A stretch of DNA of 38,967 nt from Candidatus Solincola quzhuomuensis (GTDB lineage Bacteria > Actinomycetota > Geothermincolia > Geothermincolales > RBG-13-55-18). Below are positions 16,019 through 25,188 of this stretch, piece by piece; position 1 is the stretch's first letter, and every line of letters begins with the position of its first letter. A program made the position numbers and the translations under genes. The notes beneath the pieces were generated by a model. It was not told the origin of the DNA. It did not search any database and saw only the letters and a program-made list of their open reading frames with translations. The stretch covers positions 1-38,967 of the forward strand of contig JACVJF010000016.1 in NCBI GenBank assembly GCA_015711855.1, read 5' to 3'.

Positions 16019-16573
16019 ATGATAAGCGTAACCGGCTCCGGGCTGGAGAAGGAGATCGAAAGGCGCTGCGGAGAGAAGGTCCGTCTATGCTTCCAGTGCG
16101 GGAAATGCAGCACGGGGTGCCTCTTCAGCCCGGCTATGGATTTCCTTCCCCACCAGGTCATGAAACTGGTCCAACTGGGGGTTGAGGAAAGGCTGCTCTC
16201 CAGCCGGACCGTATGGATCTGCGCCTCCTGCGTCACCTGCACGGCGCGCTGCCCCAACGACATCGACGTGGCCCGGGTCGTCGACACCCTGCGAGAGATG
16301 GCTTTGGAGAGGGGCGTAAGGCCGGCCGAGAAGAACATACCCCTCTTCCACTCCTGTTTCCTGGCCAACATCCGGGCCACGGGGAGGATAAGCGAGCCCG
16401 TGCTCATGGGGGCCTATAAGTTGTTGTCCGGCGACCTCACAAGCGACGTCGGGCTGGCCGTGAAGATGCTCCGCAAGGGGAAGATAAAGCTCGTCCCCAG
16501 CCTGGTCCGAGGGCGGCGCGAGATACGGCGCATCTTCCGGGAGAGCCGGAGGAAGGAAATGGCGAGAAGGTGA
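16019..16573 (+). CDS. hdrC: HdrC-like iron-sulfur subunit
   Basis: A 184-residue soluble ferredoxin-type subunit of a heterodisulfide-reductase-like complex. It carries two [4Fe-4S] motifs: Cys24/27/30/34 (CFQCGKCSTGC) and Cys68/71/74/78 (CASCVTCTARCP). HdrC passes electrons between the flavin subunit HdrA and the catalytic subunit HdrB. There is no membrane helix, so this is the cytosolic HdrABC type, not HdrDE. The ATG follows a purine-rich GGGGAGGGAGG directly. The C-terminal 50 residues are basic. It is the first gene of the operon, 7 bases before hdrB. Confidence 0.92.
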   Translation: MISVTGSGLEKEIERRCGEKVRLCFQCGKCSTGCLFSPAMDFLPHQVMKLVQLGVEERLLSSRTVWICASCVTCTARCPNDIDVARVVDTLREMALERGVRPAEKNIPLFHSCFLANIRATGRISEPVLMGAYKLLSGDLTSDVGLAVKMLRKGKIKLVPSLVRGRREIRRIFRESRRKEMARR

Positions 16574-16580
16574 AACGGGC

Positions 16581-17504
16581 ATGAGAACTTACGGCTATTA
16601 CCCCGGGTGTTCCCAGTTTTCCTCCGCGGAGGAATACGGAGACTCGGCGGTCAAGGTGGCCGAGGCCCTGGGCTTACGGCTGGAGCCCCTCCCCGACTGG
16701 AGTTGCTGCGGGGCCTCCTCGGCTCATATGACCAACCACCTACTCTCGGTCTCCCTTCCGGCCAGGAACCTCGCGCGGGCGCGGGAGCGGGGCGGGGACC
16801 TGGTGGTTGTCTGCGCCGCCTGCTACCACAACCTCAAGTCCGCCCAGAAGGCGCTCCTCGAGGACGAGGCCCTGGCTTCCCGTGTGGAGAAGATCATAGG
16901 TTCTAACCCCCGCTTCCGGGGCCGCATCGTGCACCTTTTGGACGTGATTTACGAGGAGGTGGGGGTGGAGGCCTTGCGGGAGAGGGTGGTGAACCCGTTG
17001 CGGGGGCTCGAGCCGGTCTCCTATTACGGATGCCTCATGGCCCGCCCGCCGGAGATGATGGAGGGCGACAACCCGGACAACCCCCGGCGCATGGACGAGC
17101 TGCTCGCCGCCCTGGCAGCCGAGGTGAAGCCCTGGTCCTACAAGACGGACTGCTGTGGAGGCAGCCTTTCCCTCACCCGCGCCGACGTGGTCGTCGGTAT
17201 GGTGAACCGCCTCTTCGAGGCCGCGGAGGAGGCGGGTGCCGACAGCCTGGTCACCGCCTGTCCCATGTGCCTGGCCAACCTGGAGATGCGCCAGCGGGAG
17301 GGCAAGCTGCGCTTCGCCCACGAGCACGACCTCCCGGTGTTCTTCTTCACCGAGCTCATCGGGTTGGCCTTGGGGATGGAGGAGGCCGAAGCGTGGTTCT
17401 CCAAGCATCTCTTGGACCCCCGTCCCCTCCTGTGGAGGAAAGGGGTGGCTACGGGAAGCGTTAGAGGCTTGCCCGGAAGCGGAACGGTGAAAGCAAGGAG
17501 ATAA
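16581..17504 (+). CDS. hdrB: HdrB-like subunit with two CCG domains
   Basis: A 307-residue subunit with both cysteine-rich CCG domains complete: Cys10, Cys42/43, Cys78/81 and Cys151, Cys191/192, Cys227/230. In methanogens these hold two noncubane [4Fe-4S] clusters that reduce CoM-S-S-CoB; a bacterium lacks those thiols, so the physiological disulfide or other acceptor is unknown. The first 280 residues match normal HdrB; the last 25 are a basic, Gly/Arg-rich tail. It starts 7 bases after hdrC and ends 29 bases before hdrA. Retention of all cysteines argues for a working catalytic site. Confidence 0.92.
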   Translation: MRTYGYYPGCSQFSSAEEYGDSAVKVAEALGLRLEPLPDWSCCGASSAHMTNHLLSVSLPARNLARARERGGDLVVVCAACYHNLKSAQKALLEDEALASRVEKIIGSNPRFRGRIVHLLDVIYEEVGVEALRERVVNPLRGLEPVSYYGCLMARPPEMMEGDNPDNPRRMDELLAALAAEVKPWSYKTDCCGGSLSLTRADVVVGMVNRLFEAAEEAGADSLVTACPMCLANLEMRQREGKLRFAHEHDLPVFFFTELIGLALGMEEAEAWFSKHLLDPRPLLWRKGVATGSVRGLPGSGTVKARR

Positions 17505-17533: not shown

Positions 17534-20500
17534 GTGCTTAAGGTCATGTCCGGCAACGCGCAAGAGAAGAGGGATAACCGCGAAAAGGACGCCGGCCGTC
17601 CGCCGCTTGGGTCGGTCATGGTGGTGGGGGGTGGCGTGGGGGGCATCCAGGCCTCCCTGGAGCTCTCCGGACTGGGATACAGCGTATACCTGGTGGAGTC
17701 CTCTCCCTCCATCGGCGGGGTCATGGGCATGCTGGACAAGACCTTCCCCACCAATGAGTGCTCCATGTGCATCCTCTCTCCCAAGATGGTGGAGGTGGCC
17801 TCGGACCTGAACATCGAGGTCCTCACCCTTGCGGACGTGCTCTCCGTGGAGGGACAGCCGGGAGACATGCGCGTGCGGCTGCGCCTGCGGCCCCGCTACG
17901 TGGACGCGGAGAAGTGCACCGGATGCGGGGACTGCACCGCCAAGTGCCCGGTGAAAATACCGGATCCATACAACGCGGGCCTGAACGTCACCCGCTGCAT
18001 CCGAGTGCCCTTCCCCCAGGCGGTCCCCGGGGCGGCGGTCGTGGAGGGTTCGGTCTGCCGCTATCTACAGAAGGGAAAGTGCGGCAACTGCGTCAAGGTC
18101 TGTCAGGCAGGGGCCGTGAACTTCGAGGACCGGGAGAGGGAGGAAGTGTTCCGAGTGGGCATGGTCATCGCCGCCCCCGGTTACCGTCCCTTCGACGCCT
18201 CCCGCAAGACGGAGTACGGATACGGCATCTATCCCAACGTGGTCACCTCCCTGGAGTTCGAGCGCATCCTGGGGGCCAACGGCCCCACCCAGGGGCACGT
18301 GATCCGGCCCTCCGACGGGCGGGAGGTCCGTAAGCTGGCCTTCATCCAGTGCGTGGGGTCGAGGGACGTCACCGTGGGCAACGGGTACTGCTCCAGCGTG
18401 TGCTGCATGTACGCCACCAAGCAGGCCCTCATTGCCAAGGAGCACCTCCCCACCGTGGAGCCCACCATCTTCTTCATCGACCTGCGGGCCTACGGGAAGG
18501 ACTTCGAGAAGTACTACACCGAGGCGGAGGCCCGCCACGGGGTGCGCTACGTGCGGGGCCTGGTCTCCGGGATTAGGGAGAGGCAGCGCACCAAAAACCT
18601 CCTCCTGCGCTACCTGGACGAGGGGGGCTGCATGCGCGAGGAGGAGTTCGACCTGGTGGTCCTCTCCATCGGCCTGGAGCCCCCCTGTGGGCTGGCCGAG
18701 GGGCTGGGCCTGGAGCTGAACGATCACGGGTTCGCTCGCTCCGACCCCTTCCTGCCCGTGCTCTCCTCCAAGCCGGGAGTGCTGGTCTGTGGCGCGGCCC
18801 AGGAGCCCAAGGACATCCCGGATACCGTCACCCAGGCCACGGCGGCGGCGGGGGTGGCCTCCCTCGAGTTGCACCAGGCGCGGGGAACCCTTCTCACCCG
18901 CCGCGAATATCCTCCGGAGAGGGACGTGCGCGGCGAGGAGCCCCGGGTGGGGGCCATCATCTGCCGCTGCGGGTCGAACATAGGCGGCTTCGTGGACGTG
19001 CCCGCGGTGGTGGAATACGCCCGCACCCTTCCCGGGGTGGTCTTCGCCGAGGAGAGGCTCTACGCCTGTTCCCAGGACGCCCAGGAGTGGATACGCCGGC
19101 TGGTGGAGGAGCACCGACTGAACCGCCTGGTGGTGGCCTCCTGCACTCCCCGCACCCACCAGCCCCTCTTCCGGGAGACCCTACGCTCGGCGGGGATTAA
19201 CAAATACCTCTTCGAGATGGCCAACATCCGCGAACACTGCTCCTGGGTGCACATGCAGGAGCCGGAGAAGGCCACCCGCAAGGCCAAGTACCTGGTGAAG
19301 ATGGCCGTGGAGAAGGCCAGGCGCCTGGAGCCCTTGGCCGAGGGGGAGAGCGAGGTCATCCCCCGCGCCCTAGTTATAGGGGGCGGGGTGGCGGGGATGA
19401 ACGCTGCCCTGCATCTGGCCGGTTCCGGCTTCCCGGTCTACTTGGTGGAGAAGGAGGCGGAGCTGGGCGGCCTGGCGCGCAACGTGCACTTCGACTACCG
19501 GGGAGAGGACGTGCAGGCCTACCTCCGCCAGCTCATAGAAGGGGTTCGGAGGGAGGAATTGATAACCGTCTTCACCGGGCATCGAGTGGCGGACGTCTCC
19601 GGCTTCGTGGGCCAGTTCCGCACCCTGATACAAGACGACGAGGGGCGGGAGACCCTCCTCGAGCACGGCGCGGTCATCGTGGCCACCGGTGGAGGGGAGT
19701 ACCGGCCCGCCGAGTACCTCTACGGGGAGGACGAGCGCGTCCTGACCCAGTGGGAGCTGGAAGCGAGGATCGCGGCCCGGGACGCGGGGCTGCGCAGGCT
19801 CCGCCGCGCGGTGATGATCCAGTGCGTCGGTTCGCGGGACGAGGAGAGGCCCTACTGCTCCAAGGTCTGCTGCACGGAAGCGGTGAAGAACGCCCTAGCC
19901 CTCAAGGAATTGAAACCCGAAGCGGAAATATACGTTCTCTACCGGGACGTGCGCACCTACGGTTTCCGGGAGGACCTCTACCGGAAGGCGCGGGAGGCGG
20001 GGGTGGTCTTCCTCCGCTTCGACGACGGATTGCGGCCGCGGGTGGCCCGTTCCGGGGGAAGCTTGAGGGTCACGGTTCCCGAGGCCGGCCTGGGCGAGGA
20101 AGTGGCCATCCATGCCGACCTGGTAATACTTTCCACGGGGATAATTGCCAACCCGGACAACTCCGAGCTGGCCCCCATGCTCAAGGTCCCTCGGAACGCG
20201 GAGGGTTTCTTCCTGGAGGCGCACATGAAGCTTCGCCCGGTGGACTTCGCCACCGACGGCGTCTTCGTGTGCGGCCTGGCCCACGCCCCCAAGTCCATCG
20301 AGGAATCCGTGGCCCAGGCGGTGGCCGCGGCGGCCCGGGCGGAGTCCGTGCTGTGCAAGGAGAAGATCGTCACCGAGGGCGTGGTGGCCGTGGTGGACGA
20401 GGAGAGGTGTTCCGGGTGCGGGATTTGCGTGCGGCTCTGTCCTTTCGAGGCGATAACCTTGGACCGGGAGAGGAGGAAGGCCGCGGTCAACCCCTCCCTT

Positions 20501-20620
20501 TGCAAGGGATGCGGGACGTGCACGGCGGCCTGCACGGCGGGGGCCAGCCGCCTGCAAGGGTTCCGAGCCGACCAGATATGCGAGCAGATAGAGGCGGCGG
20601 CCACCGCCTGGGAGGGATAG
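17534..20620 (+). CDS. hdrA: Fused double-flavin HdrA-like protein
   Basis: A 1,028-residue flavoprotein, far longer than the roughly 650 residues of methanogen HdrA. The N-terminal FAD module has GGGVGG at 32-37 and a Cys77/Cys80 insert (NECSMCILSP), then ferredoxin-type clusters Cys128/131/134/138 and Cys175/183/186/190. A central HdrA block follows (CRCG near 480, then LVVASCTPRTHQPLF). A second FAD module begins near 615 (VIGGGVAGMNAALHL) and repeats the IQCVGSRD motif of the first. The C-terminus has two more [4Fe-4S] motifs (CSGCGICVRLCP and CKGCGTCTAAC). HdrA is where flavin-based electron bifurcation takes place. GTG 17534 is used; ATG 17546 is an alternative. Long fused forms are known in bacteria, but their electron path is less studied. 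Confidence 0.93.
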   Translation: MLKVMSGNAQEKRDNREKDAGRPPLGSVMVVGGGVGGIQASLELSGLGYSVYLVESSPSIGGVMGMLDKTFPTNECSMCILSPKMVEVASDLNIEVLTLADVLSVEGQPGDMRVRLRLRPRYVDAEKCTGCGDCTAKCPVKIPDPYNAGLNVTRCIRVPFPQAVPGAAVVEGSVCRYLQKGKCGNCVKVCQAGAVNFEDREREEVFRVGMVIAAPGYRPFDASRKTEYGYGIYPNVVTSLEFERILGANGPTQGHVIRPSDGREVRKLAFIQCVGSRDVTVGNGYCSSVCCMYATKQALIAKEHLPTVEPTIFFIDLRAYGKDFEKYYTEAEARHGVRYVRGLVSGIRERQRTKNLLLRYLDEGGCMREEEFDLVVLSIGLEPPCGLAEGLGLELNDHGFARSDPFLPVLSSKPGVLVCGAAQEPKDIPDTVTQATAAAGVASLELHQARGTLLTRREYPPERDVRGEEPRVGAIICRCGSNIGGFVDVPAVVEYARTLPGVVFAEERLYACSQDAQEWIRRLVEEHRLNRLVVASCTPRTHQPLFRETLRSAGINKYLFEMANIREHCSWVHMQEPEKATRKAKYLVKMAVEKARRLEPLAEGESEVIPRALVIGGGVAGMNAALHLAGSGFPVYLVEKEAELGGLARNVHFDYRGEDVQAYLRQLIEGVRREELITVFTGHRVADVSGFVGQFRTLIQDDEGRETLLEHGAVIVATGGGEYRPAEYLYGEDERVLTQWELEARIAARDAGLRRLRRAVMIQCVGSRDEERPYCSKVCCTEAVKNALALKELKPEAEIYVLYRDVRTYGFREDLYRKAREAGVVFLRFDDGLRPRVARSGGSLRVTVPEAGLGEEVAIHADLVILSTGIIANPDNSELAPMLKVPRNAEGFFLEAHMKLRPVDFATDGVFVCGLAHAPKSIEESVAQAVAAAARAESVLCKEKIVTEGVVAVVDEERCSGCGICVRLCPFEAITLDRERRKAAVNPSLCKGCGTCTAACTAGASRLQGFRADQICEQIEAAATAWEG

Positions 20621-20646: not shown

Positions 20647-21132
20647 ATGACGGAGGAGAAGAAGGAAGGGCGGGCCGAGGCGGGCGGCGAAGACGACGTA
20701 CGCATCCTGGCCTTCCTCTGCAACTGGTGCTCCTACGCCGGGGCAGACCTGGCCGGGGTCTCCCGCCTCCAATACCCGCCTAACGTCCTCGACGTACGGG
20801 TGATGTGCACGGGCACCATCAGTCCCTACTTCGTGGTCAAGGCCTTTCAGGAGGGAATGGACGGGGTGCTCATCGCCGGCTGCCACATCGGGGACTGCCA
20901 TTACCTGAAGGGGAACTACATGACCGCCAAGCGCTTCCAGGTCCTGCGCGAGGCGCTGAAATTCATGGGGTTGGAGGAGGGCCGCCTACGCCTGGAGTGG
21001 GTTTCCGCTGCGGAGGGTGAGAAATACGCCGAGGTGGTGCGTTCCTTCACCGAGCAGGTGAAGGCCCTGGGTCCCTCGCCTTTGCGCAGGAAGCGGGCAC
21101 GGGCGGTAAAGGGTGAGAAAGGGGCCGCTTAG
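20647..21132 (+). CDS. mvhD: MvhD/FlpD-like [2Fe-2S] subunit
   Basis: A 161-residue protein that links HdrA to a hydrogenase or formate dehydrogenase. The family cysteines are all present: Cys25 and Cys28 (CNWCSYAGAD), Cys54 (VMCTG), and Cys79 and Cys84 (GCHIGDCHYLKGN). These hold the [2Fe-2S] cluster that delivers electrons to HdrA. The N-terminal 17 residues are charged and extra to the core, and the C-terminal 15 are basic. ATG 20647 has GAGGTGCGGAG in front. Its stop overlaps the GTG of the next gene by one base. Followed here by FdhB- and FdhA-like genes, it most likely serves formate dehydrogenase rather than a [NiFe] hydrogenase. Confidence 0.92.
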   Translation: MTEEKKEGRAEAGGEDDVRILAFLCNWCSYAGADLAGVSRLQYPPNVLDVRVMCTGTISPYFVVKAFQEGMDGVLIAGCHIGDCHYLKGNYMTAKRFQVLREALKFMGLEEGRLRLEWVSAAEGEKYAEVVRSFTEQVKALGPSPLRRKRARAVKGEKGAA

Positions 21133-21980
21133 TGGAGGTCAGGAGAGCGGGTTTGGTGGATGCGGAGGAGCTGAAAGCCCTTATAAGGAAGAAACTGGAA
21201 GAAGGGGCGGATGCCTTCCTCTGCCTGGTGGACGAGGAGGGGAGCCTCGTTCCCGCGCTGGTGACCGGCGCCGATTCCCCGGACTTGGAGAGGATCCGGG
21301 TGGGCGGGGTACGTTATCCCCTTGCGAAGATCCTCGTGGAGCTCCTCCGCGAATACCCGGGGAGGCGCTTCGCCGTGCTGGCGCGGGGATGCGACGAGAG
21401 GGCCCTGGTGGAGCTGGCCAAGCTGGAACAGGTGGACCCGGACCGGGTGGAGCTGGTGGGCCTGGCCTGCACCGAGGAGGAGGCAAGGGCCTGCGGCTGT
21501 CCGAAGCCCTACCCCACCAGAGTGGATTTGGGGGAAAGGGCGGAACCCGCCCCGGAGCGGGAGGTCATCGAGGAGGCGGAGTTCCTCCCCGATCCCGAGC
21601 GCCTGCGCTTCTGGGAGGAGCACTTCTCCCGGTGCATCAAGTGCTACGGGTGCCGGAACGTATGTCCCATGTGCTTCTGCGAGGACTGTGCCCTGGAGAA
21701 CCCCCAGCTGGTGGAGCCCGGAGTCGTCCCCCCGGAGTTTCCCTCTTTCCACCTGATAAGGGCTTTGGACATGGCCGGCCGATGCGTGGATTGCGGGTTG
21801 TGCGATGAGGCCTGCCCGGCGGACATCCCTTTGCGCTCCATCTACCGGAGGATGCAGGAGGTCATGGAGGAACGCTTCGGCTACCGCCCTGGCGAGGACC
21901 CGGAGCGCCGTAACCCCCTGAGCGAGCTGGGCACCGAGGCCGAAATAAAGAAAATCATGGGGTCAGGTCTTGAAATTTGA
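21132..21980 (+). CDS. FdhB-like iron-sulfur electron-transfer subunit
   Basis: A 282-residue iron-sulfur protein between mvhD and fdhA. The N-terminal half resembles the FrhB/FdhB region of F420-linked enzymes (RGCDERALVELAKL near 86, Cys113, Cys121/123) but is probably not an F420 enzyme in this setting. The C-terminal half has cluster motifs Cys168/171/174/178 (CIKCYGCRNVCP), Cys181/183/186 and Cys218/221/224/228 (CVDCGLCDEACP). It would carry electrons from the molybdenum or tungsten site to MvhD and HdrA. The start GTG overlaps the mvhD stop. The last seven residues (MGSGLEI) and the stop codon are encoded by an inserted REP-like repeat, so the native C-terminus has been replaced. Confidence 0.88.
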   Translation: MEVRRAGLVDAEELKALIRKKLEEGADAFLCLVDEEGSLVPALVTGADSPDLERIRVGGVRYPLAKILVELLREYPGRRFAVLARGCDERALVELAKLEQVDPDRVELVGLACTEEEARACGCPKPYPTRVDLGERAEPAPEREVIEEAEFLPDPERLRFWEEHFSRCIKCYGCRNVCPMCFCEDCALENPQLVEPGVVPPEFPSFHLIRALDMAGRCVDCGLCDEACPADIPLRSIYRRMQEVMEERFGYRPGEDPERRNPLSELGTEAEIKKIMGSGLEI

Positions 21981-21996: not shown

Positions 21997-22036
21997 CGAG
22001 TAAATCCGAGGCGGCATGAGCGAACGAGGTAAAGTC

Positions 22037-24097
22037 ATGGCGGACAAGGAACTCGATTTCCGGCTCGTCCCCTCCACCTGCGTGTATTGCGGCACGGGAT
22101 GCGGGGTGCTGCTGCAGGCGAACAACGGGCGCCTCACGGGCACGCTTCCCTTGAAGGACCACCCCGTCTCCCGCGGTGAGCTGTGCATCAAAGGTTGGGC
22201 GGTCCACGAGTTCGTGCACAGCCCGAGCCGCCTCACAAAACCCCTTGTCCGCCGAAACGGGGAGCTGGTGGAGACGGACTGGGACACGGCGCTCCGAGCG
22301 GTAGCGGATGGTTTGCGGAGGACACGAGACGAACACGGACCGGATGCCGTGGGATTTTTGGCCTCCGCCCGCTGCACCAACGAGGAGAACTACCTTCTCA
22401 TGAAGTTGGCCCGCGCGGTGATCGGTACCAACAACGTCGACCACTGTGCCCGCTTGTGCCACAGTCCGACGGTCGCCGGCTTGGCGAGGGTGCTGGGCAG
22501 CGGGGCCATGACCAACTCCATCGAGGACCTGGCGGAGGCGGAGGTCATCCTGGTGGTTGGCTCCAACACCACGGAGCAGCACCCCATCATCGGGGAGCGG
22601 ATCCTTTCCGCGGCGAGGAAGGGCACCCGACTCATCGTCATCGACCCCCGGGCCATCCACTTGAGCCGCTTCGCCCGCATTTTCCTGCGGCCCCGTCCGG
22701 GAACCGATGTCGCTTACCTCAACGGGCTGGCCAACGTCATCCTGGCGGAGGGATTGCAGGACGAGGCGTTCATCGCCTCCCGCACGGAGGGTTTCGAGGA
22801 ATTCCGCCGGGCGGTGGCCGAGTACACCCCGGAGAGAGTGGAGCAGATAACCGGCATCCCGGCTGCGGATCTTGTGGAGGCCGCCCGCCTCTATGGGAGG
22901 GCGGAAAGGGCGGCCATCGTCTATTGCATGGGTATCACCCAACACGTCGCGGGAACGGACAACGTGCTGGCCGTGGCCAACCTCGCCCTCCTCACCGGGA
23001 ACCTGGGGAAGCCGGGCACGGGGATCAACCCCCTGCGGGGCCAGAACAACGTGCAGGGGGCCTGCGACATGGGGGCCCTCCCCAACGTCTTCACTGGCTA
23101 TCAGAAGGTGGACGACGAGCAGGCGGCGCAGAAGTTCGAGGTCGCCTGGGGGGTGGAAGGACTTTCCAGGAAGCCGGGTCTAACCGTGGTGGAGATGACC
23201 GAAGCCGCCGCAGAGGGAAGACTGCGGGCCATGTACGTCATGGGGGAGAACCCCATGGTCTCCGACCCGGACATCAACCACGTGCGCGAGGCCCTTTCCT
23301 GTCTGGACTTCCTGGCCGTGGCGGACATCTTGGAAAACGAGACGCTGCGCTATGCGCACGTGGTGCTTCCGGCCGCCTCCTACGCCGAGAAGGAGGGGAC
23401 CATCACCAGCACCGAGCGTCGGGTGCAGAGGTTCCGCCGGGCGGTGGAGCCTCCCGGAGAGGCCCGCCCGGACTGGGAGATCGTTTGCGAGCTGGCCCGG
23501 CGCCTGGGGGCGAGCGGCTTCGACTTCGCCTCACCCGAGGAGGTCTTCGAGGAGATACGTAGGCTAACCCCCAGCTATGCGGGTATGACCTACAGACGCC
23601 TGGGAACCAAGGGTTTGCAGTGGCCCTGTCCCTCCGAGGAGCATCCGGGCACGCCCATACTGCACATGGAAAGTTTTCCTATAGGAAAGGCCAGGTTCAC
23701 GCCGGTGACCTATCGCCCGCCGGCGGAGGAGCCGGACGAGGAGTACCCTCTCATCCTCACCACAGGGCGCATACTCTTCCAGTATCACACGGGGACCATG
23801 ACCCGTCGCTCTCCTTCCCTGGTGAAGGAGGCCGACCGACCCTTCGTCGAGGTGAGCCCGGAGGACGCCGGGGAACTGGGTATAACCGACGGCGAGCGCG
23901 TGACCGTCTCCTCCCGGCGGGGGAGCTTGGAAGTGGAAGCTCGAGTGACCGATCGGGTGGGTAAGGGCCTGGTCTTCATGCCCTTCCACTTCGCCGAGGC
24001 GGCGGCCAACCTGCTCACCATAGCCGCTCTGGACCCGGTGGCCAAGATTCCCGAACTCAAGGCCTGCGCCGTCAAAATCCAAGGGGTCAGGTCTTGA
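22037..24097 (+). CDS. fdhA: Molybdopterin formate dehydrogenase, catalytic subunit
   Basis: A 686-residue Mo/W-bis-MGD oxidoreductase that interconverts formate and CO2. Cys15/18/22/50 (CVYCGTGC ... CIKG) bind one [4Fe-4S] cluster. The active site is in NNVDHCARLCHSPTVAGL with Cys141 and His142; it lines up with Sec140-His141 of E. coli FdhF, so this is a cysteine, not selenocysteine, enzyme. The MGD-binding C-terminal domain is complete (about 575-685). ATG 22037 has GAGGTAAAG in front; ATG 22016 (seven residues longer) is nearly as good. No twin-arginine signal is present, so it is cytosolic. The final residues (GVRS) and stop lie in repeat copy B. It is the last gene of the hdr-fdh operon. 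Confidence 0.94.
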   Translation: MADKELDFRLVPSTCVYCGTGCGVLLQANNGRLTGTLPLKDHPVSRGELCIKGWAVHEFVHSPSRLTKPLVRRNGELVETDWDTALRAVADGLRRTRDEHGPDAVGFLASARCTNEENYLLMKLARAVIGTNNVDHCARLCHSPTVAGLARVLGSGAMTNSIEDLAEAEVILVVGSNTTEQHPIIGERILSAARKGTRLIVIDPRAIHLSRFARIFLRPRPGTDVAYLNGLANVILAEGLQDEAFIASRTEGFEEFRRAVAEYTPERVEQITGIPAADLVEAARLYGRAERAAIVYCMGITQHVAGTDNVLAVANLALLTGNLGKPGTGINPLRGQNNVQGACDMGALPNVFTGYQKVDDEQAAQKFEVAWGVEGLSRKPGLTVVEMTEAAAEGRLRAMYVMGENPMVSDPDINHVREALSCLDFLAVADILENETLRYAHVVLPAASYAEKEGTITSTERRVQRFRRAVEPPGEARPDWEIVCELARRLGASGFDFASPEEVFEEIRRLTPSYAGMTYRRLGTKGLQWPCPSEEHPGTPILHMESFPIGKARFTPVTYRPPAEEPDEEYPLILTTGRILFQYHTGTMTRRSPSLVKEADRPFVEVSPEDAGELGITDGERVTVSSRRGSLEVEARVTDRVGKGLVFMPFHFAEAAANLLTIAALDPVAKIPELKACAVKIQGVRS

Positions 24098-24254: not shown

Positions 24255-24315
24255 AATCAATAACGTAAGGATGACCGGATAGGCGAGCCGCTTTATGGGA
24301 TCGACTGGGATTCCG

Positions 24316-25188
24316 ATGGCCAGACCACTGAGGTTACAGATGGAAAACGCTCTCTACCACATAACATCGCGTGGCAACGAGAGGGGAAGCATCTTCCTGG
24401 ACGATCAAGACCGTTACGTCTTTCTGAAGAAGGTCTCCGAGGTCGCGGCGCGGTATGCATGGTCCATCTACGCTTATTGCCTTATGGGCAACCACTACCA
24501 CCTCCTCCTACGAACCGAGCAGCCGAACCTCTCACGGGGTATGCGGCAGTTGAACGGCACGTATGCGCAGTATTTCAACCGGCGCCATGAAAGGGCGGGT
24601 CACTTATTCCAGGGAAGGTTCAAGGCCATTCTCATCAAGGACGAGGAGAGGCTCCTGACCGTTGCCCGCTACGTGGTTCTCAATCCGGTAAGAGCGGGCA
24701 TCGTGGATGGACCGGCGGATTGGAAATGGTCGTCCTATCGGGCGACGGTCGGTCTGGACAAGGCCGCCGATTTTATGGGCATCGACCAATTGCTGTGCTT
24801 TTTCTCCAACCGGCGCGATGTAGCCCGTAAGCTCTACGACTCCTTTGTCCATGAGGGCGTCGGGAAACCGTCACCCCTTACGGATGCACGCGGAGGGATT
24901 CTTCTGGGAGAAAAGGAGGCGGCGAGAACGGTCTTCGAGGAGATTGGCCGGAAGATCGACCCGGAGATACCCAAAAGGGAAAGGTTCGCCGCGAGGCCCG
25001 ACCTGGAGGAGATATTTTCGCTCCACGATAGAGAAACGGGAATATACGAGGCGATACACAGGTATGGATATACATTGAAATCGGTCGGAAGTTTCCTGGG
25101 AATACATTATTCGGCTGTGAGCAGGATCGCCAAAAGGGCGACCGGATGCGACGATTGTGAATCCATTCCCTCCCAACGATCTGTTTAA
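24316..25188 (+). CDS. REP-associated tyrosine transposase (Y1_Tnp)
   Basis: A 290-residue single-strand transposase of the IS200-like HUH group. The N-terminus (MARPLRLQMENALYHITSRG) is typical of RAYT/TnpA-REP proteins. His60 and His62 (GNHYHLLL) form the HUH metal site, and the catalytic Tyr is one of Tyr83 or Tyr86 in LNGTYAQYFNRRH. VARYVVLNPVRAG and WKWSSYRA also fit. The C-terminal 50 residues (YEAIHRYGYTLKSVGSFLGI...) form a helix-turn-helix like the DnaA C-terminal domain seen on many longer RAYTs. ATG 24316 matches the family start; ATG 24295 has no ribosome site. All catalytic residues are intact, so it may be active. Confidence 0.92.
   Translation: MARPLRLQMENALYHITSRGNERGSIFLDDQDRYVFLKKVSEVAARYAWSIYAYCLMGNHYHLLLRTEQPNLSRGMRQLNGTYAQYFNRRHERAGHLFQGRFKAILIKDEERLLTVARYVVLNPVRAGIVDGPADWKWSSYRATVGLDKAADFMGIDQLLCFFSNRRDVARKLYDSFVHEGVGKPSPLTDARGGILLGEKEAARTVFEEIGRKIDPEIPKRERFAARPDLEEIFSLHDRETGIYEAIHRYGYTLKSVGSFLGIHYSAVSRIAKRATGCDDCESIPSQRSV

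Follow-up and report, generated by a model that had tools for sequence, protein, structure and literature searches.

The 38,967-nucleotide stretch of DNA analyzed here (hereafter the window) comprises positions 1-38,967 of the forward strand of contig JACVJF010000016.1 from Candidatus Solincola quzhuomuensis (GCA_015711855.1). Its plus strand carries, in this order, the genes hdrC, hdrB, hdrA, mvhD, a short FdhB-like Fe-S gene, and fdhA. The subject of this study is hdrA, whose product contains two TrxR-like modules for flavin adenine dinucleotide (FAD) in one chain with unequal halves. The first-pass annotation had described a double-flavin protein of about 1,030 residues at 17534-20620, and the gene indeed encodes 1,028 residues with two Rossmann/FAD modules, each bearing the IQCVGSRD motif. 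The features of the gene are as follows:

17534..20620, + strand: hdrA, double-flavin (type II) HdrA, 1,028 aa, GTG start
17603..18883, + strand: module 1, residues 24-450, a TrxR-like FAD module equivalent to the HdrA core, with an inserted ferredoxin domain
17741..17782, + strand: Cys76/Cys79 loop, equivalent to Cys194/Cys197 of M. thermolithotrophicus HdrA
17903..18109, + strand: inserted ferredoxin domain, residues 124-192, with ligands for two [4Fe-4S] clusters
18260..18421, + strand: module 1 E243 (equivalent to E356), cluster Cys273/286/290/291, and K296 (equivalent to K409)
18935..19333, + strand: HdrA N-terminal cluster domain, residues 468-600, Cys477/479/512/537, aligned to 5odc_A 2-174
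19349..20368, + strand: module 2, residues 606-945, a second TrxR-like FAD module without the ferredoxin insert and without the Cys76/79 loop
19760..19888, + strand: module 2 E743, cluster Cys764/775/779/780, and K785
20387..20551, + strand: C-terminal ferredoxin domain, residues 952-1006, with ligands for two [4Fe-4S] clusters

The match to HdrA is not due to chance, given a phmmer E-value of 2.7e-201 against M. thermolithotrophicus HdrA (5odc_A), which aligns in three stretches (residues 468-640 with 2-174, 29-384 with 147-498, and 853-1021 with 478-648). The chain runs from FAD module 1, with Cys76/Cys79 and the ferredoxin insert, through the N-terminal cluster domain to FAD module 2 and the C-terminal ferredoxin; because the N-terminal cluster domain of HdrA sits mid-chain, the two halves differ. 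The Rossmann loops are GGGVGG near residue 32 and GGGVAG near residue 616, and the IQCVGSRD motifs hold Cys273 in module 1 and Cys764 in module 2. The four ferredoxin-type cluster motifs reported earlier are present, as eight cysteines in the insert (128, 131, 134, 138, 175, 183, 186, and 190) and eight at the C-terminus (959, 962, 965, 969, 990, 993, 996, and 1000), for four predicted [4Fe-4S] clusters. The loop cysteines, placed earlier at Cys77/Cys80, exist, although counted from the GTG they are Cys76/Cys79, and they occur in module 1 only. By ligand count, the predicted cofactors are two FAD and seven [4Fe-4S] clusters (four ferredoxin-type, two TrxR-type, and one N-terminal). The N-terminal domain cysteines (477/479/512/537) are invariant in all 66 fused proteins aligned; in 10 of the 66, Asp replaces the second Cys of the final ferredoxin motif (residue 993), so that the C-terminal arm of those proteins may carry a modified or Asp-ligated cluster. 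Translation may actually begin four codons downstream of the GTG, at an ATG (17546) that by eye follows an AAGG.

Three NCBIfam HdrA models built on the single-FAD layout score best by far, yet fall short of their cut-offs (NF040770, 992 of 1100 bits; NF041778, 746 of 1400; NF041891, 669 of 1300). The protein instead has the features of type II HdrA: two TrxR/FAD modules (Pfam Pyr_redox_2 in two stretches), and an N-terminal domain and Cys197 equivalent that are distributed complementarily between the halves. Judged by this content, modules 1 and 2 together appear to form one complete HdrA pair.

The predicted fold is consistent with such a pair. AlphaFold2, supplied with 66 aligned relatives, modeled the full chain with a mean predicted local distance difference test score (pLDDT) of 90.9 and a predicted template modeling score (pTM) of 0.91; freely floating modules should give a pTM nearer the larger module's share. 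A 583-residue fragment comprising module 1 and the N-domain alone was also predicted with confidence (pTM 0.91), as would be expected if the N-domain belonging to the second half docks on module 1. Module 1 superposed on the HdrA core (8rvu_a 150-576) with a VIA-align Z of 53.0 and a root-mean-square deviation of 1.4 A over 421 residues. Module 2 superposed on full-length HdrA at 2.8 A over 556 residues (5odc_A) and 2.3 A over 553 (7bkb_A), but its fit to 8rvy_A, a conformer in state 1, was poor (8.4 A), so that the arm is predicted in a state-2-like pose. Foldseek concurs, with target TM values of 0.79 for 8rvu_A and 0.61 for 8rvy_A. The models suggest that the fused chain folds as its own lopsided dimer, with two HdrA copies head to tail, in line with the earlier proposal that the tandem mimics the dimer inside one chain.

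Fused proteins of this kind occur in many phyla. A scan of named genomes yielded at least 584 confirmed stretches, and the best 80 of these span Lokiarchaeota, Thermoplasmata, Bathyarchaeota, Methanoperedens, Chloroflexota, Desulfobacterota, Planctomycetota, Armatimonadota, Bacillota, and others. In many of 78 genomes near the window, the HdrA genes include fused ones of the window type, a second fused type (∼50% identity), the canonical single-FAD form, and split pairs. Clean-up left 116 distinct fused proteins, of which 83 have Cys at the Cys79 position and 33 have an in-frame TGA exactly there; domain rows were required to cover at least 330 query residues for module 1 and 250 for module 2, and open reading frames (ORFs) with a GltD-like insert were omitted. 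L083:2991-6164, two genes joined by TGA read-through, is included as fused in the 117-row counts and in the tree but is excluded from the 116, while L057 and L060, window-type genes in broken frames, were scored as split halves in the residue counts and the tree.

The comparison set comprised 31 TrxR columns that are at least 97% conserved in canonical HdrA, split first halves, and first modules. In second modules, the Rossmann and second-glycine positions are conserved (G616, G618, G621, and G646 in 117/117, G645 in 116/117); one module lacking its FAD-contacting residues would have told against two flavins, and both modules keep them. The main departures of second modules fall in the cysteine loop (M64, P72, T73, C76, and C79), at R244, and partly at E243 and K296. 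The last two correspond to Glu356/Lys409, whose presence at the flavin is the criterion for an electron-bifurcating HdrA (PMC9430772; PMC12054007). In the window HdrA, the pair is intact in both modules (E243/K296 and E743/K785). Across the distinct fused proteins, it is intact in 116/116 first modules vs 78/116 second modules; it is also retained in 34/34 canonical proteins, 19/19 split first halves, and 22/23 split second halves. Among the 38 second modules with a loss, 31 lost E, 27 lost K, and 20 lost both, leaving 20 different residue pairs (in L133 the E column is gapped and was scored as lost, as its K also changed). On a tree of the 116, the pair changed at least seven times in module 2 and not once in module 1. 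This loss is not general decay, since the four TrxR-cluster cysteines of the second modules are retained in 117/117 rows, one of them the L083 artefact.

The history of the fusion was examined with one tree of both halves, computed by a quick method from 92 rows and 291 shared columns with the ligand columns removed. One side of the tree (support 98) holds all 24 first modules together with 11 split first halves, and the other (99) holds 24 second modules together with 13 split second halves. L119 and L130, although split first halves, are placed on the second-module side, on long branches. The halves therefore occupy two separate HdrA branches, for which the labels A6 and A12 are taken from Lyu et al. 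and were assigned without their sequences. On both sides, the fused forms are set apart from the split ones (support 85-96), the pattern expected from a single old fusion or a single old fission. A recent internal duplication is rejected on the basis of the ∼35% identity between modules 1 and 2 over 245 residues and of their opposite positions in the HdrA tree. By this phylogeny, the fusion appears to be old, a joining of two anciently diverged HdrA lineages rather than a local duplication.

Domain order is uniform in all double ORFs (129, including duplicates and one read-through artefact; 116 distinct), with module 1 first, then the N-domain, then module 2. Split neighbors (26 pairs, some loci counted twice) have half 1 upstream of half 2 each time, and the single reverse case consists of two interleaved pairs. 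At six loci (L042, L043, L044, L046, L048, and L052), a gene for fused HdrA, one for an MvhD fusion, and a split HdrA pair lie in succession, the second half of the pair being itself fused to MvhD; from their gene content, these loci would encode two HdrA heterodimers side by side. L138:1606-6102 and L139:2399-6841 encode double HdrA proteins of ∼1,480-1,500 residues, with ∼480 extra residues inside module 1, a layout like that of the GltD-insert form in Moorella.

In the retained fused proteins, the in-frame TGA is confined to the Cys79 position and occurs nowhere else in the two modules. Examples are L071, L080, L105, and L109, and an in-frame TGA at the bridging cysteine is also found in three split first halves. 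CxxU is a recognized selenoprotein motif of HdrA (PMC13188914), and the inter-module cluster ligand is probably selenocysteine in the 33 TGA-bearing fused proteins.

From the solved homologs we infer the trans geometry, the electron path, and the role of FAD1 as sole site. In the solved homodimers, a mobile arm, built from the donor subunits and from the N- and C-terminal domains of one HdrA, delivers to FAD' in its partner HdrA; the high-potential electron exits via HA4', and the C-terminal cluster HA3 shuttles the low-potential one to the other protomer's HA5' (PMC12350162), which on our reading of that paper would belong to the inserted ferredoxin. One ligand of the N-terminal cluster, Cys197, is supplied by the other HdrA protomer (PMC9012536), and by equivalence Cys79 would be an inter-protomer ligand. 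Module 1 would then be the receiving protomer, contributing FAD1, the TrxR cluster leading to HdrC, the inserted ferredoxin domain leading to ferredoxin, and the bridging cysteine, and module 2 would be the arm-bearing protomer, with the N-terminal cluster domain, the C-terminal ferredoxin domain, and the MvhD docking side. In the formate-oxidizing direction, electrons would pass from FdhA through the short FdhB and MvhD to FAD1; the high-potential electron would leave FAD1 via the Cys273/286/290/291 cluster for HdrC and HdrB, and the low-potential electron would reach ferredoxin through the C-terminal ferredoxin domain of module 2 and then the one inserted in module 1. Such a chain would hold a single complete trans site, located at FAD1, against two in the symmetric homodimer.

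Domain order, ligands, conservation, tree, and a compact predicted fold are directly supported, and we regard it as very probable that the type II HdrA chain is a tethered heterodimer. Because only one complete set is present in the fused chain (the arm of module 2, with the FAD, HdrC-side cluster, insert, and Cys79 of module 1), FAD1 should bifurcate, and FAD2, without its own arm or ferredoxin insert, is probably structural or auxiliary. The first-pass annotation regarded the identity of the bifurcating flavin as not settled; experimentally this still holds, but conservation and the trans-arm geometry of the solved homologs favor FAD1, and we incline toward it as the main bifurcating site. 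Overall, the best explanation is probably that two HdrA lineages in one chain form their own asymmetric dimer with one complete site at FAD1. A further step is more tentative, with odds that we place a little short of even: that the fusion converted a symmetric bifurcator with two sites into an enzyme with one, where bifurcation takes place solely at FAD1 with the arm of module 2 acting in trans, and that the freed FAD2 lost its bifurcation residues repeatedly in other lineages.

Several observations weigh against a single site. The window's own clade keeps the module 2 E and K in 26/26 proteins, and the split second halves nearly always do so as well (22/23), which leaves room for a redox role of FAD2 there. 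The ligands of the module 2 TrxR cluster are likewise invariant. In addition, the MvhD-to-FAD' step in the solved structures spans 25 A, and its mechanism is not known (PMC12350162). One alternative is that both flavins bifurcate, giving two sites per chain, as Lyu et al. (2025) suggest in crediting type II HdrA with the capacity for two flavin-based electron bifurcation reactions (PMC12054007). The window protein retains both E/K pairs, as do all 26 proteins of its clade, and all TrxR cluster cysteines. Nevertheless, the ferredoxin insert is missing from module 2 and the N- and C-terminal arm from module 1, which would leave FAD2 without a trans arm and a ferredoxin exit, and the E or K losses are found in 38/116 second modules vs 0/116 first modules; we consider two sites unlikely. 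Much less likely still are flavins in series, as the first-pass annotation had envisaged, with electrons entering FAD2 from the C-terminal ferredoxin and passing to FAD1, one flavin alone bifurcating. The two FAD sites do lie within one compact predicted chain, and FAD2 shares a module with the C-terminal ferredoxin, but the arm in the solved homodimers serves the other protomer's FAD (PMC12350162), the portion of the structural literature on these homodimers drawn on here describes no FAD-FAD relay, and the E/K losses at FAD2 hint at no relay role; no support for this arrangement was found. Least probable of all is bifurcation at FAD2 with FAD1 non-bifurcating or structural, since E and K are kept in every fused protein by module 1 alone (116/116), many second modules are without them, and the ferredoxin exit is located in module 1.

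The genes that flank hdrA supply the putative donor and acceptor sides:

16019..16573, + strand: hdrC-like, 184 aa, two CxxCxxC...C cluster motifs; NCBIfam TIGR03290 at 68 bits, under the cut-off of 160
16581..17504, + strand: hdrB-like, 307 aa, PF02754; PDB HdrB 9sfi_C, E 4e-41
20647..21132, + strand: mvhD (FlpD family), 161 aa, [2Fe-2S] electron-entry subunit; PF02662 at 178 bits; 9sw2_D, E 7e-51
21132..21980, + strand: short FdhB-like Fe-S protein, 282 aa, partial match to 9t1s_M
22016..24097, + strand: fdhA, formate dehydrogenase catalytic subunit, 693 aa; TIGR01591 at 880 bits vs a cut-off of 666

The HdrB-like protein has two complete CCG motifs, the ligands of non-cubane clusters. FdhA scores above the cut-off of the curated formate dehydrogenase model and retains the active-site Cys-His (HCARLCH), which aligns with the X(Sec)-His of 9t1s_L, a solved F420-type FdhA (Sec, selenocysteine). 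The FdhB-like protein aligns convincingly with the 383-residue 9t1s_M only at residues 53-125 and 275-376 of the latter, and has no Pfam match to the F420/FAD family (FrhB/FdhB domain). Most of the central part of an F420-type FdhB, which we take to be its flavin site, is absent, and the protein would lack the central FAD/F420-binding part of an F420-dependent FdhB. In the 96% complete genome, there is no match to DsrC (PF04358) or to the McrA N-terminal domain (PF02745), and acetyl-CoA synthase CdhC/AcsB (PF03598) is present. The reaction here is likely formate oxidation driving the reduction of ferredoxin and of a disulfide at HdrB, or the reverse. A canonical HdrA of 677 aa with a single FAD is also encoded in this genome, accompanied by an MvhD and an FdhB-like gene of its own (L061:2231-5685), and provides an internal control for the fused form. 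Directly 3' of fdhA lies a transposase-like ORF (24295-25188), judged by eye to be of the REP-associated type.

Double-flavin HdrA is already published for archaea and two acetogens and is a widespread design, and the HdrBCA-MvhD-FdhBA operon type is known from sulfate reducers and Chloroflexi. As described by Lyu et al. (2025; PMC12054007), the type II HdrA of methane- and alkane-metabolizing archaea (classes A3/A4) likewise has two TrxR/FAD modules per chain, with an A6-like first half and an A12-like second half in the same order as the window protein, on two independent branches as here, and linked, as here, to HdrBC, MvhD, FdhB, and a molybdopterin protein. In a clade of anaerobic methanotrophic archaea (ANME-2/3), Methanolobus, and Methanosarcina, however, the molybdopterin protein is reported as catalytically dead and F420H2 is the proposed donor (PMC12054007), whereas the window FdhA keeps its Cys-His and the window FdhB is without most of the F420-type central part. 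Those authors propose two possible bifurcation sites; we propose one.

The ANME HdrA3/HdrA4 fusions and the tandem HdrA5/6 and 12/13 (Chadwick, 2022; PMC9012536) show the same complementary N-terminal domain and Cys197, and HdrA3/4 was proposed to be its own heterodimeric partner, as was the Moorella protein, which is the same idea as ours. That paper places the N-domain half of HdrA3/4 first, whereas every fused protein here has it second, including those of the Methanoperedens loci L066 and L127 and those in 4/60 genomes of that class (L127's own among the four); the Methanoperedens order agrees with PMC12054007. No fusion of the opposite order was found among the 116 distinct fused proteins; ANME-1 genomes were not knowingly sampled, so the statement in PMC9012536 is not disproved for them.

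The HdrA proteins of Sporomusa ovata (942 aa) and Moorella thermoacetica (1,487 aa) are also double-TrxR proteins with a methanogen-like C-terminal half without a ferredoxin insert, like that of the window; they differ in that the partner in MetVF-HdrCBA-MvhD is MetVF rather than formate dehydrogenase, in the added GltD insert of Moorella, and in that S. ovata has E/K in one module only, where the window has both (PMC9430772). This E/K count is the nearest published hint on the bifurcating module: E160/K216 of S. ovata precede residue 383, which places them in module 1 (PMC9430772). In the part of the literature surveyed, we found no module-level, structure-based assignment of the bifurcating flavin in an HdrA fusion. 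The HdrBCA-MvhD-FdhBA of Desulfobacula toluolica and the deep-sea Chloroflexi DscP3 has the same gene set around HdrA, but its FdhA carries selenocysteine (PMC5736913). With the methanogen HdrABC-MvhAGD, Fdh-Hdr, and Elp-Hdr complexes (5odc, 7bkb, and 8rvu; PMC12350162), the window shares all HdrA, MvhD, HdrB, and HdrC domains and cluster ligands; those complexes have one FAD per chain, a symmetric two-site homodimer, and CoM-S-S-CoB as acceptor, whereas the window genome, as noted, is without an McrA match.

HdrA-based bifurcation is the source of low-potential ferredoxin for many anaerobes, and double HdrA proteins occur well outside the methanogens, the group from which the solved single-FAD structures come. 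Should the fused chain have exactly one working site, it would offer a simpler system than the symmetric dimer for identifying the flavin that splits electrons and for following the action of the mobile arm, as both sites could be mutated separately within one gene.

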